From Halobaculum rubrum (GTDB taxonomy: Archaea; Halobacteriota; Halobacteria; Halobacteriales; Haloferacaceae), in contig NZ_CP082284.1 in the NCBI RefSeq assembly GCF_019880225.1, positions 1,302,001 through 1,366,000 of the forward strand: DNA of 64,000 nucleotides. Reading direction: 5' to 3'. Positions 8,033 through 11,647 of the stretch are shown here, one piece after another. The translations under genes were made by a program, and so were the position numbers. The notes under the pieces were generated by a model that saw only the letters and a program-made list of their open reading frames with translations, searched no databases and had not been told where the DNA came from. Each line of letters begins with the position of its first letter. The first letter of the stretch is position 1.

Positions 8033-8115
8033 GCTGCCCCCCTCCGTACAGGTGGTATCACCGCTCGACCGATGCCGTGAGAGTTTTTAACACGATACCC
8101 GCCCTCCATACGAGT

Positions 8116-8490
8116 ATGAGCACCGAAACGGCGTCTGAGGGGCTGGCCCTCCACACGGAGACGATGACTGGACTGCACTGGCTCGGGATCGCGCTCGCGG
8201 CGATCACCGGCGTCATCCACCTGTGGCTCGCGTACGCGTTCAGTTCGGAGACCGGGATGGCCGTCGCGTTCCTGATCGCGGGAGTCGGCTTCCTCGGCGG
8301 TGTGGCAGCGGTGCTGTTCGACTACCGTCGCCACCTGTTCTACGTGCTCGGGATCCCGTTCACCGCCGGGCAGATCCCGCTGTGGTACGTCGCGAACGCC
8401 CCCGACTTCGGGGCGACCGGGATCGCGGACAAGGTCGTGCAGGTCGTCCTCGTCGTCGTTCTCGTCGTCCTCTACAGACGCGAGTCGTAG
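8116..8490 (+). CDS. Small four-helix membrane protein, haloarchaeal, unknown function
   Basis: A 124-residue protein with about four membrane helices (L-H-W-L-G-I-A-L-A-A-I-T-G-V-I-H-L onward) and a histidine near the end of helix one. No catalytic or transport motif is evident. A tttttaac TATA box at 8084-8091 lies about 28 bp before the ATG at 8116, which therefore looks like a leaderless start; a GTG at 8077 lies upstream of that TATA box and is rejected. I recognise it as a haloarchaeal conserved protein without a known role. It is followed after 6 bp by another membrane protein gene, so the two likely form an operon. Confidence 0.8.
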   Translation: MSTETASEGLALHTETMTGLHWLGIALAAITGVIHLWLAYAFSSETGMAVAFLIAGVGFLGGVAAVLFDYRRHLFYVLGIPFTAGQIPLWYVANAPDFGATGIADKVVQVVLVVVLVVLYRRES

Positions 8491-8496
8491 GCCGTG

Positions 8497-9051
8497 ATGG
8501 CGTTCACGCACGCCCTTTCGGGCGCAGTGCTTGCAGCTCCCGTCCTCGCGGTCGCGCCCGAGTTGGCCGCTCCGGCCGCAGTCGCGGGGATCGTCGGCGG
8601 ACTCCTCCCGGATCTCGACCTGTTCGTCGGACGCCATCGGCGGACGCTCCACTTCCCCGTGTTGGGGTGGGCACTGGCGCTCCCGGCGATCGGCATCGCC
8701 GCGGTCGCTCCGACGGCTGCGACCGTCGCGGCGGCCGTGGGGACCGCGTCGTTCGCCGTCCACGCTGGAACCGACGCCCTCGGCGCAGGCGATGAGATCC
8801 GGCCGTGGGAACGGACCTCCGCGGAGGCCGTCTACGATCATCTCCACGGTCGGTGGATCCGTCCGCGCTTCTGGATCCGCTACGACGGCGCCCCCGAGGA
8901 CGCCGTCGCTACCGCGGTGCTCGCGGCCCCGATCGTCGCGTTCTACCCCGCGCCGTTGCCGGCGGTCGCAGCCGTCTGCGTCTTCCTCGGGATCGTGTAC
9001 GCGATCGTCCGACGCCGGCTTCCCCCGGTCGTCGAGGAGTTGGTCGGGTGA
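8497..9051 (+). CDS. YdjM-like membrane-bound putative metal-dependent hydrolase
   Basis: A 184-residue membrane protein of the DUF457/YdjM type. Visible marks are the N-terminal F-T-H-A-L-S-G-A, the acidic G-G-L-L-P-D-L-D segment, an H-R-R-T-L-H-F-P motif and V-H-A-G-T-D-A-L-G, giving the H, D, H, H/D pattern of this family of presumed metal hydrolases. Three to four membrane helices surround these residues. In bacteria YdjM is SOS-regulated, which would fit the neighbouring radA, but that is only suggestive. The frame begins GTG-ATG at 8494; I take the ATG at 8497. Confidence 0.8.
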   Translation: MAFTHALSGAVLAAPVLAVAPELAAPAAVAGIVGGLLPDLDLFVGRHRRTLHFPVLGWALALPAIGIAAVAPTAATVAAAVGTASFAVHAGTDALGAGDEIRPWERTSAEAVYDHLHGRWIRPRFWIRYDGAPEDAVATAVLAAPIVAFYPAPLPAVAAVCVFLGIVYAIVRRRLPPVVEELVG

Positions 9052-9191: not shown

Positions 9192-9608
9192 ATGACATAC
9201 CGAACGACCGTCACGCGGCAGTTCGTCGCACAGCACTATCTCACCGTCCCCGACCCCGGTCCCGAGGGCGATCTTCACTCGCACGTCTTCTCCGTCGAGG
9301 CGGCCTTCGCGGGACCCTCGCTAAACGAGTACGACTACCTGGTCGACATCGACGACGTGCGCGCGGCGCTGGACGAGGCGGAGGAACGCTATCGCGACGC
9401 GACGCTGAACGACCTTCCGGAGTTCGAGGGGTACAACCCCAGCGTCGAACGGTTCGCGCGCGTCCTCCACGACCGGATCGCCCCGGCCGCCGCGGGCGGG
9501 TCCGCCGAGACGCTCCGCGTGACCGTCTGGGAGGACGACGAGGCCGCCGCCGGCTACGAGGGACCGATCGCCGGTACAGGCGTGGACGACGTCGTCGCCG
9601 ATGGCTGA
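9192..9608 (+). CDS. 6-pyruvoyl-tetrahydropterin synthase / QueD-like protein lacking the catalytic Cys
   Basis: A 138-residue T-fold protein related to 6-carboxytetrahydropterin synthase (QueD). The zinc-site histidines are present as Q-H15-Y and H29-S-H31, and the N-P-S-V-E-R-F-A and V-T-V-W-E-D-D...Y segments match the conserved C-terminal half. The nucleophilic Cys that normally sits four residues before the H-G-H pair is Glu25 here, and H-G-H has become H-S-H. The queuosine/archaeosine QueD reaction is therefore doubtful; a different pterin-like or regulatory role is inferred. It overlaps the next gene by 8 bp, so the two are translationally coupled. The ATG at 9192 is chosen because the upstream in-frame extension is Arg-rich and unlike the family. 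Confidence 0.8.
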   Translation: MTYRTTVTRQFVAQHYLTVPDPGPEGDLHSHVFSVEAAFAGPSLNEYDYLVDIDDVRAALDEAEERYRDATLNDLPEFEGYNPSVERFARVLHDRIAPAAAGGSAETLRVTVWEDDEAAAGYEGPIAGTGVDDVVADG

Positions 9609-10731
9609 GCCGCCGCCCGGGTCGTCAACAGCCGTCGACAGCGACGACGACCCTGCCGGCGACGGCCTCGCCGTCGCCCTCGTCGTCCCCGGCGACCCGG
9701 CCACGACCTCGGGGGGGTTCCGCTACGATCGCCGCCTCGTCGCCGGCCTCCGCGCGACCGGCGCGACGGTTCGCGTGTTCTCGGTGCCGTGGCGACGCTA
9801 TCCGCTCGCCGTCCTCGACGCACCCGGGCTCGCGACCGGGGTACCCGACCGACTGAGAGACGCCGACGTGGTCGTCGTGGACGAACTCGCCCATGCCAGC
9901 ACGTGGGGGCTCGTCCGCCGGCTCCGCCGCGGCGGCACGCCCGTCGTCGCGCTGGTGCATCACCTCCGGCGCGCCGAAGGGGACCGGCTCGCGCCGGTCG
10001 CGGCGCGGCTGGAACGGCTCTTTCTCGCTGGGAGTTCGGCCGCCGTCTGCGTGAGCGACCCGACCGAACGCGACGTGAGGTCCCTCGTCGACGGCATCCG
10101 AACCCACGTCGCGCCCCCGCCGGCCGACCAGTTCGACCCCGCGGTGGTGCCAGCCGACGTGGACCGCCGCGCCCGCGAGGACCCGTTCCGAATCGTCTCG
10201 CTCGGATCGCTCGTCCCCCGGAAGGGACATCCGACGCTGCTGCGGGCGGTCGCCGGCGCCGACGCCGACTGGCGACTCGCCGTCGTCGGTCCCGAACCGG
10301 ACCCGGGCCACGCCCGCGAGGTGCGCGCGATCGCGGCCGACCTCGGCGTCGCCGACTGCGTGTCGTTCCGCGGGAAGTTGTCGACGGCCGACCTCGCTGC
10401 CGTCCTCCGGGAGTCGCACGTCCTCGCGGTTCCCTCCGAGCACGAGGGGTTCGGGATGGCGTATCTGGAGGGGATGGGCTTCGGCCTCCCGGCGATCGCC
10501 TCCGCGGCGGGCGGTGCGTCCTCGATCGTCACGGAGGGCGAGAACGGCTTCCTCGTCGACCCCGGCGACGTGGGAGGCGTCCGGGAGGCGCTCTCGGCGC
10601 TCACGGGCGACCGCGACCGACTGGCGCGGATGGGAACCGCGGCGCTCCGGCGCTTCGACGCCCACCCCGACTGGGCCGACACCGTCGCGGGCGTCCGGGA
10701 CTTCCTCGCGGAGGTGGCCGATGGAGGGTGA
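9601..10731 (+). CDS. Family 4 type glycosyltransferase (GT-B fold)
   Basis: A 376-residue cytoplasmic glycosyltransferase. The C-terminal half shows GT4 marks: S-L-G-S-L-V-P-R-K-G-H about residue 200, then A-V-P-S-E-H-E-G-F-G-M-A-Y-L-E-G-M-G-F-G-L-P around 277-298, containing the E-x7-E nucleotide-sugar site. The N-terminal half has the expected open acceptor domain. No membrane segment is present. Donor and acceptor are unknown. It lies between the Cys-less QueD-like gene (8 bp overlap) and a methyltransferase (11 bp overlap), so the three are probably made together. Confidence 0.88.
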   Translation: MAEPPPGSSTAVDSDDDPAGDGLAVALVVPGDPATTSGGFRYDRRLVAGLRATGATVRVFSVPWRRYPLAVLDAPGLATGVPDRLRDADVVVVDELAHASTWGLVRRLRRGGTPVVALVHHLRRAEGDRLAPVAARLERLFLAGSSAAVCVSDPTERDVRSLVDGIRTHVAPPPADQFDPAVVPADVDRRAREDPFRIVSLGSLVPRKGHPTLLRAVAGADADWRLAVVGPEPDPGHAREVRAIAADLGVADCVSFRGKLSTADLAAVLRESHVLAVPSEHEGFGMAYLEGMGFGLPAIASAAGGASSIVTEGENGFLVDPGDVGGVREALSALTGDRDRLARMGTAALRRFDAHPDWADTVAGVRDFLAEVADGG

Positions 10732-11647
10732 CGACGTGACGTATCTGGAGGCGGCGCGGACGGTCGACGGCCGCGCCCACAGCGACGCGGCGACCGACGC
10801 GTTCCGGGCGGCGCTGGAGCGACCGGCGCCCGGGGCGGACGAGGGGCAGGGGTCGGCGGATGGGGTCCGCGTGTTTGAGGCCGGCGCCGGCACCTGCGGA
10901 ATGGTTCGCCGTCTGCTCGCCGACGGCGCGCTGCCGGCGGGCGAGTGGCTCGCCGTCGACGCCGACGAGCGGGTGCTGTCAGCCGGACGAGATCGGCTGC
11001 ACGAGGCGGCACGCGAGGCGGGGTACGGAGTCGAAACCGAGGGGTCTGGACTGCTGCTCGATCTCCCCGACTTCGACGCGACGCTCCGCGTCCACTTCGC
11101 GGTCGGTGACGCTCGCGAGGTCGCCGACGACCGCGCCGGCGACTTCGACGGCGTGGTCGCGCGGTCGTTCGCGGACCTGCTGGCTCCCGACGACGTGCTC
11201 GCGCTCCTCCGGACAGCTGCCCCGGATGGCTGGTATCACCTGCCGCTCACCTTCGACGGCGAGACCCGGTTCGCGCCCGAGCACCCGGCCGACGACGCCG
11301 TGATCGACGCCTTCCACGGGACGATGCGCAACCGCGGGCGGGCGGCGACGCTGCTCGCCGGTCGGTTCCGGGAGGTCGGGACGCCACCGGCGGTCGACGC
11401 GCGCGCCGACTGGGTGATCGAGGGAACCTCTGACGGAGCGGGAACCCATGGGGGCGCCGCCTATCCGGCCGACGAGGGGACGTTCCTGCGGATCGTCCTC
11501 GAAACCGTCGTCGCCTCCGTGCGCGAGTCGGAAGCCGTGTCGGCGGCGACGCTGTCGGCGTGGACGGAGACGAGAACCGCGCAGTTGGAACGGGGAGCAC
11601 TCGGCTACGTCGCGGTGAACCGCGACCTGTTCGGGCCGGTTCCCTGA
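10721..11647 (+). CDS. SAM-dependent class I methyltransferase
   Basis: A 308-residue protein with SAM motif I as V-F-E-A-G-A-G-T-C-G-M-V-R-R-L near residue 50 and the acidic L-A-V-D-A-D-E strand end of motif II about 25 residues later, then a typical Rossmann core. The C-terminal 80 residues have no recognised domain. The ATG at 10721 overlaps the glycosyltransferase stop by 11 bp; a GTG at 10736 (M-T-Y-L-E-A-A-R) is an alternative start. The substrate is unknown. With its neighbours it suggests modification of a glycosylated small molecule or lipid, which is inference only. Confidence 0.83.
   Translation: MEGDDVTYLEAARTVDGRAHSDAATDAFRAALERPAPGADEGQGSADGVRVFEAGAGTCGMVRRLLADGALPAGEWLAVDADERVLSAGRDRLHEAAREAGYGVETEGSGLLLDLPDFDATLRVHFAVGDAREVADDRAGDFDGVVARSFADLLAPDDVLALLRTAAPDGWYHLPLTFDGETRFAPEHPADDAVIDAFHGTMRNRGRAATLLAGRFREVGTPPAVDARADWVIEGTSDGAGTHGGAAYPADEGTFLRIVLETVVASVRESEAVSAATLSAWTETRTAQLERGALGYVAVNRDLFGPVP

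Follow-up and report, generated by a model that had tools for sequence, protein, structure and literature searches.

Three overlapping genes of the haloarchaeon Halobaculum rubrum, encoding a PTPS-fold protein, a GT4 glycosyltransferase, and a class I SAM-dependent methyltransferase (MT), are rather likely to represent the haloarchaeal form of an interdomain gene module for a glycosylated, methylated, GTP-derived pyrimidine derivative, probably linked to a membrane lipid. The genes lie in a window of 64,000 nucleotides (i.e., the whole stretch of DNA that was analyzed; contig NZ_CP082284.1) and are listed with two upstream genes in Table 1. The PTPS and GT4 genes overlap by 8 bp and the GT4 and MT genes by 11 bp, exactly as given in a preliminary description of the locus. 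That description took the trio for one unit. It did not include the DUF7475 gene upstream, the partner dehydrogenase, or the bacterial counterpart of the module. Across four congeners, dN/dS was 0.13 to 0.27 for the PTPS gene, 0.30 to 0.33 for the GT4 gene, and 0.30 to 0.35 for the MT gene. With ratios of 0.13 to 0.35 across the trio, all three genes are therefore maintained by purifying selection, and the PTPS gene, with the lowest ratio, is the most constrained. Together with the occurrence of this gene arrangement in both archaea and bacteria, the selection places the trio well beyond chance.

Table 1. Genes of the locus, with positions counted from the first nucleotide of the window
Feature	Coordinates	Strand	Remarks
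DUF7475 (PF24287) small membrane protein	8077..8490	+	ATG at 8116 is a possible alternative start
YdjM-like membrane protein	8494..9051	+	sits between the DUF7475 and PTPS genes
PTPS-fold protein, 138 aa	9192..9608	+	PF01242 match; Cys-to-Glu (E25), HSH
GT4 glycosyltransferase, 376 aa	9601..10731	+	conserved glutamate pair E282/E290 present
Class I SAM-dependent methyltransferase (MT), 308 aa	10721..11647	+	module-specific family

Gene order and partners in haloarchaea and bacteria

The neighborhood census comprised 99 haloarchaeal and 92 bacterial loci. From at least 591 bacterial loci, the 80 best were taken and plasmid loci added; this sample is phylogenetically uneven, and the census counts are not phylogenetically independent. 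The order MDR dehydrogenase-PTPS-GT4-MT, with near-constant spacing, recurs in both domains. The preliminary description had proposed a check of linkage in related genomes, and the trio is linked there: at 51/99 haloarchaeal and 81/92 bacterial loci (the latter from the sample just described), PTPS, GT4, and MT follow one another directly on the same strand, and 40 and 79 of these loci, respectively, also have the MDR gene upstream. In 30 haloarchaeal loci, MT directly follows PTPS. Over the whole census (bacteria again represented by the best 80 of at least 591 loci, plus plasmids), the haloarchaeal and bacterial counts were 87/99 and 90/92 for MDR, 86/99 and 85/92 for MT, 66/99 and 86/92 for GT4, and 65/99 and 75/92 for a CDP-alcohol phosphotransferase (CDPAP); the bacterial loci also contain a RibD_C-only reductase (58/92), an LPG_synthase_TM protein (55/92), RibA (GTP cyclohydrolase II, PF00925; 47/92), a creatininase family protein (38/92), and a sulfatase-like protein (28/92), and the haloarchaeal loci a fusion of a Gfo/Idh/MocA oxidoreductase with an aldo/keto reductase (38/99; e.g., L091, L093, L097, L098, and L101), ArfA/GTP cyclohydrolase III (32/99), and a weakly sulfatase-like protein (21/99). 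Unbiased clustering of neighbors returned the same partner set, plus DUF7475. PTPS, MDR, MT, and CDPAP were found in none of 22 control regions, of which 2 contained GT4 and 1 contained ArfA.

Profile comparison of the haloarchaeal and bacterial parts gave 6e-71 for MDR, 4e-56 for GT4, 1e-33 for CDPAP, 1.5e-28 for MT, and 1.7e-22 for PTPS (controls, 0.02 or worse), and on this sequence evidence the parts are the same families. For GT4 (Glycos_transf_1 PF00534 in the window, E 6e-31), cross-domain orthology rests on position and profile only, because the best matches outside haloarchaea are a mixture of module and non-module enzymes. Sequence identity between haloarchaeal and bacterial MT is low (about 20%). 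The window MT matches 3mgg and other structures of the class I SAM methyltransferase fold and has conserved G55/G57 and D80 (glycine-rich SAM motif), its Pfam scores being under the cut-off. The CDPAP motif is intact in 137 of 140 cases; CDPAP gives weak model matches to archaetidylinositol phosphate synthase, and a PDB search with it indicated no acceptor.

The DUF7475 family, which also has members away from the module, occurs at 66/99 haloarchaeal module loci versus 0/19 controls and is an extra haloarchaeal part of the module. This strong enrichment is a first functional lead for DUF7475. The YdjM-like family is near the module in just 9/99 haloarchaeal loci, and no clear ortholog of the flanking gene was found in a PTPS-less congener (G004); the YdjM-like protein is probably a local neighbor of doubtful module membership.

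In the genus of the window organism the trio stands alone, with MDR and CDPAP not beside it; the MDR gene of the window genome is unlinked (G000:C1:913258-914358). The module MDR is nevertheless present in every PTPS-bearing congener tested and is missing from the PTPS-less G004. Another family carries ArfA-PTPS-GT4 and CDPAP-MDR-MT as two separate loci, and MT was not found in 20 of 22 PTPS-less genomes. The parts thus co-vary without linkage, which is strong evidence for one pathway, and joint action of the module genes is well supported. A relative of MT was seen in one genome without a module PTPS (G034:C2:646271-647107; L302).

The haloarchaeal PTPS-like protein occurs in 143/242 genomes and 49/74 genera and is common but dispensable; several copies are plasmid-borne. 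A relative in Palleronia, which adjoins a methyltransferase gene, pointed to the bacterial family, which occupies at least 591 places in the genome collection, in Proteobacteria, Actinomycetota, Acidobacteria, Myxococcota, and Gemmatimonadota. Two Streptomyces plasmids (L112 and L113) carry SCO6650-type PTPS genes with no module partner nearby.

The PTPS-fold protein and its relatives

The PTPS-fold protein matches Pfam PTPS (PF01242) with E 3e-25 and 89 bits (cut-off, 22.4) and is the only PF01242 protein of the window genome. In the alignment with QueD, H15, H29, H31, Glu25, and the H-S-H motif all fall where the preliminary description had placed them, and E25 takes the position of the QueD Cys (PEGDLHSH in the window versus KCSRPHGH in a haloarchaeal QueD). 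All 25 haloarchaeal relatives in the alignment share Q14, H15, E25, H29, S30, H31, N82, E86, and E114, and ExxxHSH is found at 95/99 haloarchaeal module loci. The CxxxHGH motif of the QueD catalytic Cys occurs at none of the 191 module loci (0/99 in haloarchaea), and RDA stands in the window protein where QueD has DHH, so that the catalytic Asp-His pair is not kept. With both the Cys and the Asp-His pair gone and no Cys at the site, the protein differs from an ordinary QueD/PTPS, as had been proposed. It shares the T-fold, the zinc-His positions, and the ring-binding Glu with QueD/PTPS-I but lacks the Cys and the catalytic His; moreover, the two proteins coexist in some genomes, and the module neighbors in the census are not queC/queE, which canonical QueD adjoins. 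PTPS-III of folate synthesis likewise carries a Glu instead of the Cys close to the zinc, but its spacing and motif differ (ExxHGH versus ExxxHSH in the module). ExxHGH was found at 0/191 module loci, and a PTPS-III/folate identity was rejected on this motif.

The AlphaFold model of the window PTPS (mean pLDDT, 93) has SCO6650 (PDB 3d7j) as its top fold match (TM 0.82; 30% identity), and SCO6650 is also the top sequence match (E 2e-6) and falls in the bacterial module PTPS family (E 8e-64). In a tree with long branches and few outgroups, the haloarchaeal and bacterial module PTPS form two clades, joined at 96/78, apart from QueD. Judged by fold and sequence, the window PTPS is a haloarchaeal sister branch of PTPS-IV/SCO6650 and not a QueD. 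Both sides lack the Cys, and Streptomyces loci share the MDR-PTPS-GT4-MT neighborhood. The haloarchaeal branch differs in forming its own clade, in having Glu rather than the Ala of the SCO6650 type at the Cys position, in reading HSH rather than HGA, and in lacking the FGPAQ signature. A signature of this type, GPAQ..HGAT, is present in 90/92 bacterial module PTPS (best 80 of at least 591 loci, plus plasmids) and in 0/99 haloarchaeal ones, the window sequence being DPGPEGDLHSH; the third His is thus lost in the bacterial proteins (HGAT) and kept in the haloarchaeal ones. The ring-binding Glu (Glu114 in the window) is common to both branches, and the pocket therefore probably takes an amino-oxo-pyrimidine or pteridine, being incapable of Cys chemistry.

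A PTPS-IV subfamily that bears the FGPAQ motif and has PF00925 and PF01872 neighbors has been reported (PMC5445326); PF00925 is named GTP cyclohydrolase I/FolE2 in that paper, but Pfam lists it as GTP cyclohydrolase II. This neighborhood of GTP cyclohydrolase II and RibD_C is seen in bacteria, whereas 32/99 haloarchaeal loci have GTP cyclohydrolase III instead and RibA and RibD were not found at the haloarchaeal loci. PTPS-IV and part of its bacterial neighborhood are thus already known. A search of the openly accessible literature gave no account of the complete module, its GT4, MT, CDPAP, or membrane parts, or the haloarchaeal branch.

Precursor supply and alternative explanations

The cyclohydrolase linked to the module is of type II in bacterial clusters and of type III in haloarchaeal ones; to our knowledge, these are unrelated families, yet they give the same or neighboring pyrimidine products. 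Eleven haloarchaeal genomes have a second ArfA inside the module and one elsewhere. Such second copies were seen in L203, L207, L210, L220, L234, L242, and others, and some are only ~50% identical to the query copy; second module copies may be misannotated as riboflavin enzymes. In the ArfA tree, the module copies are not one clade and comprise a divergent clade and separate recruitments, which occurred more than once. The module ArfA is the sole genome copy in about half of the tested haloarchaea that have one and must there also serve riboflavin. Many of the loci analyzed do not themselves include RibA, RibD, or ArfA; in the window genome, too, the single-copy ArfA is located away from the trio, so that a role of the riboflavin precursor is tentative there. 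Deletion of arfA in Haloferax volcanii (HVO_1284) makes the strain auxotrophic for riboflavin (PMC8305020).

Cluster RibA proteins with Met, His, or Cys for the Tyr of "KLRAY" have a creatininase gene in the locus in 29/29 cases; for those with Tyr, creatininase is present in 5/18 and RibD in 18/18 (RibA type versus creatininase, Fisher 6e-8, uncorrected for relatedness and with a largely actinobacterial association). Archaeal ArfB is a creatininase family enzyme that deformylates FAPy, and SCO6655 is presumably a Streptomyces RibA of the Met type that stops at FAPy. The pairing of Tyr-less RibA with creatininase fits a FAPy-then-deformylase route in those clusters. First-step families of the riboflavin/F420 precursor pathway (RibA or ArfA, ArfB, and RibD reductase or ArfC) are in or near the module, which departs from that pathway in that its RibD consists of the reductase domain only, without a deaminase domain; in the MDR, PTPS, GT4, MT, and CDPAP that follow; and in that F420 does not need the module. 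Derivation of the substrate from GTP via a riboflavin-type pyrimidine is moderately supported. The preliminary view that the trio fits no known pathway is not supported: its GTP cyclohydrolase II/III, RibD reductase, and creatininase neighbors tie it to a riboflavin-type pyrimidine, and Cys-less PTPS-IV with part of the bacterial neighborhood was already on record (PMC5445326, PMC5041015; 3d7j).

Charged pterins were once reported from halophiles, and cyanopterin is a comparable pterin sugar. The PTPS-like protein might thus act on dihydroneopterin phosphate (from GTP cyclohydrolase I), with GT4 and MT yielding a methylated pterin sugar; the retained fold and ring-binding Glu and the GT4 and MT genes downstream of PTPS suit such a pterin glycoside, and other microbes do make glycosylated and O-methylated pterins (PMC13259868, PMC5683033). 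We regard it as rather unlikely, however: the linked cyclohydrolases are II (PF00925) and III (ArfA), accompanied by a RibD reductase; unbiased clustering recognized no GTP cyclohydrolase I family among the recurrent neighbors; and the Cys and catalytic His of known PTPS chemistry are missing. Replacement of the catalytic residues of known PTPS reactions could also mean that the protein is a pterin-binding regulator or a scaffold of GT4 and MT. This is improbable given that the new residue set (E25, HSH, Q14, N82, and E86) is invariant in haloarchaea and active-site-like and that PTPS is the most constrained gene of the trio; nothing supported the pterin sensor that the preliminary description had offered as an option.

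Two assignments to known pathways were rejected. PTPS-IV has been stated, as an unpublished result, to take part in coenzyme F420 synthesis (PMC5041015), and arfA adjacency and the precursor shared by riboflavin and F420 agree with that remark. The distribution of cofH argues against this published hint and makes such a role barely credible: cofH is kept in 9/9 PTPS-less haloarchaea tested (E 1e-78 or better) and was not found in seven module-bearing Proteobacteria (Streptomyces and Actinomadura controls have it), and only 143/242 haloarchaea have the module. Substitution for a lost QueD in archaeosine synthesis is also very unlikely. The window genome (G000) and G032 lack canonical QueD and keep queC, but queE is lost from the window genome too, which speaks against a replacement; in addition, other genomes have both QueD and the PTPS-like protein, G004 has QueD alone, the Cys is missing in every member, and the neighbors are not queuosine genes. 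At the archaeosine queC-queE-queD cluster of these two genomes (L081, G000:C1:2801500-2807500; L082, G032), queE and queD are lost, leaving queC and the ferredoxin gene next to it. Neither genome yielded another QueD or QueE; congeners keep queC, queE, and queD.

Proposed pathway and implications

In the pathway that we propose for the GTP-derived pyrimidine, the module would act as follows: (i) enzyme families seen in the clusters would open the ring of GTP, giving FAPy or 2,5-diamino-6-ribosylamino-4-pyrimidinone 5'-phosphate; (ii) a creatininase family hydrolase, also seen there, would deformylate FAPy in clusters whose cyclohydrolase lacks the Tyr, and the RibD_C-only reductase, likewise seen there, would give the ribityl form, the 2-amino group probably being retained because the deaminase domain is lacking; (iii) the PTPS-fold protein may bind the amino-oxo-pyrimidine/pteridine ring via the invariant Glu114, with zinc presumably held by three His in haloarchaea, and together with the MDR oxidoreductase may build or modify either the ring or its side chain by a mechanism that does not use a Cys; (iv) CDPAP could couple the ribityl phosphate to an alcohol such as a lipid; (v) GT4 and MT would supply the sugar and the methyl group, respectively; and (vi) the flippase-like LPG_synthase_TM protein (bacteria) or DUF7475 (haloarchaea) might act at the membrane. 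Since 33/99 haloarchaeal module loci have no GT4, the sugar might be dispensable or be attached by an enzyme encoded elsewhere. The gene set looks suited to building a small molecule or lipid that carries a sugar and a methyl group, a possibility that the preliminary description had raised.

CDPAP and membrane proteins among the partners suggest, at the level of gene families, that the product is lipid linked. The combination of CDPAP, GT4, and a membrane protein resembles phosphatidylinositol mannoside-type lipid synthesis, although the head group of the module product would, speculatively, be a ribityl pyrimidine or pteridine. As a tentative and bolder suggestion, bacteria and haloarchaea may have in common a phospholipid that resembles a pteridine or flavin, is glycosylated and methylated, is anchored in the membrane, and is built by this module from the riboflavin precursor. 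It is possibly redox-active, as a cytochrome b gene is linked to the module in Rhizobium and Thiodictyon. If this is true, such a phospholipid would belong to a class of lipid cofactors that is not known from any organism.

The module would represent a pathway with gene order conserved between two domains of life, in which the first steps of vitamin B2 synthesis are tied to the attachment of a sugar, a methyl group, and possibly a lipid. Hundreds of bacterial and archaeal entries named "6-carboxytetrahydropterin synthase" would then be something else, and the module provides a concrete gene list in tractable hosts (haloarchaea and Streptomyces).
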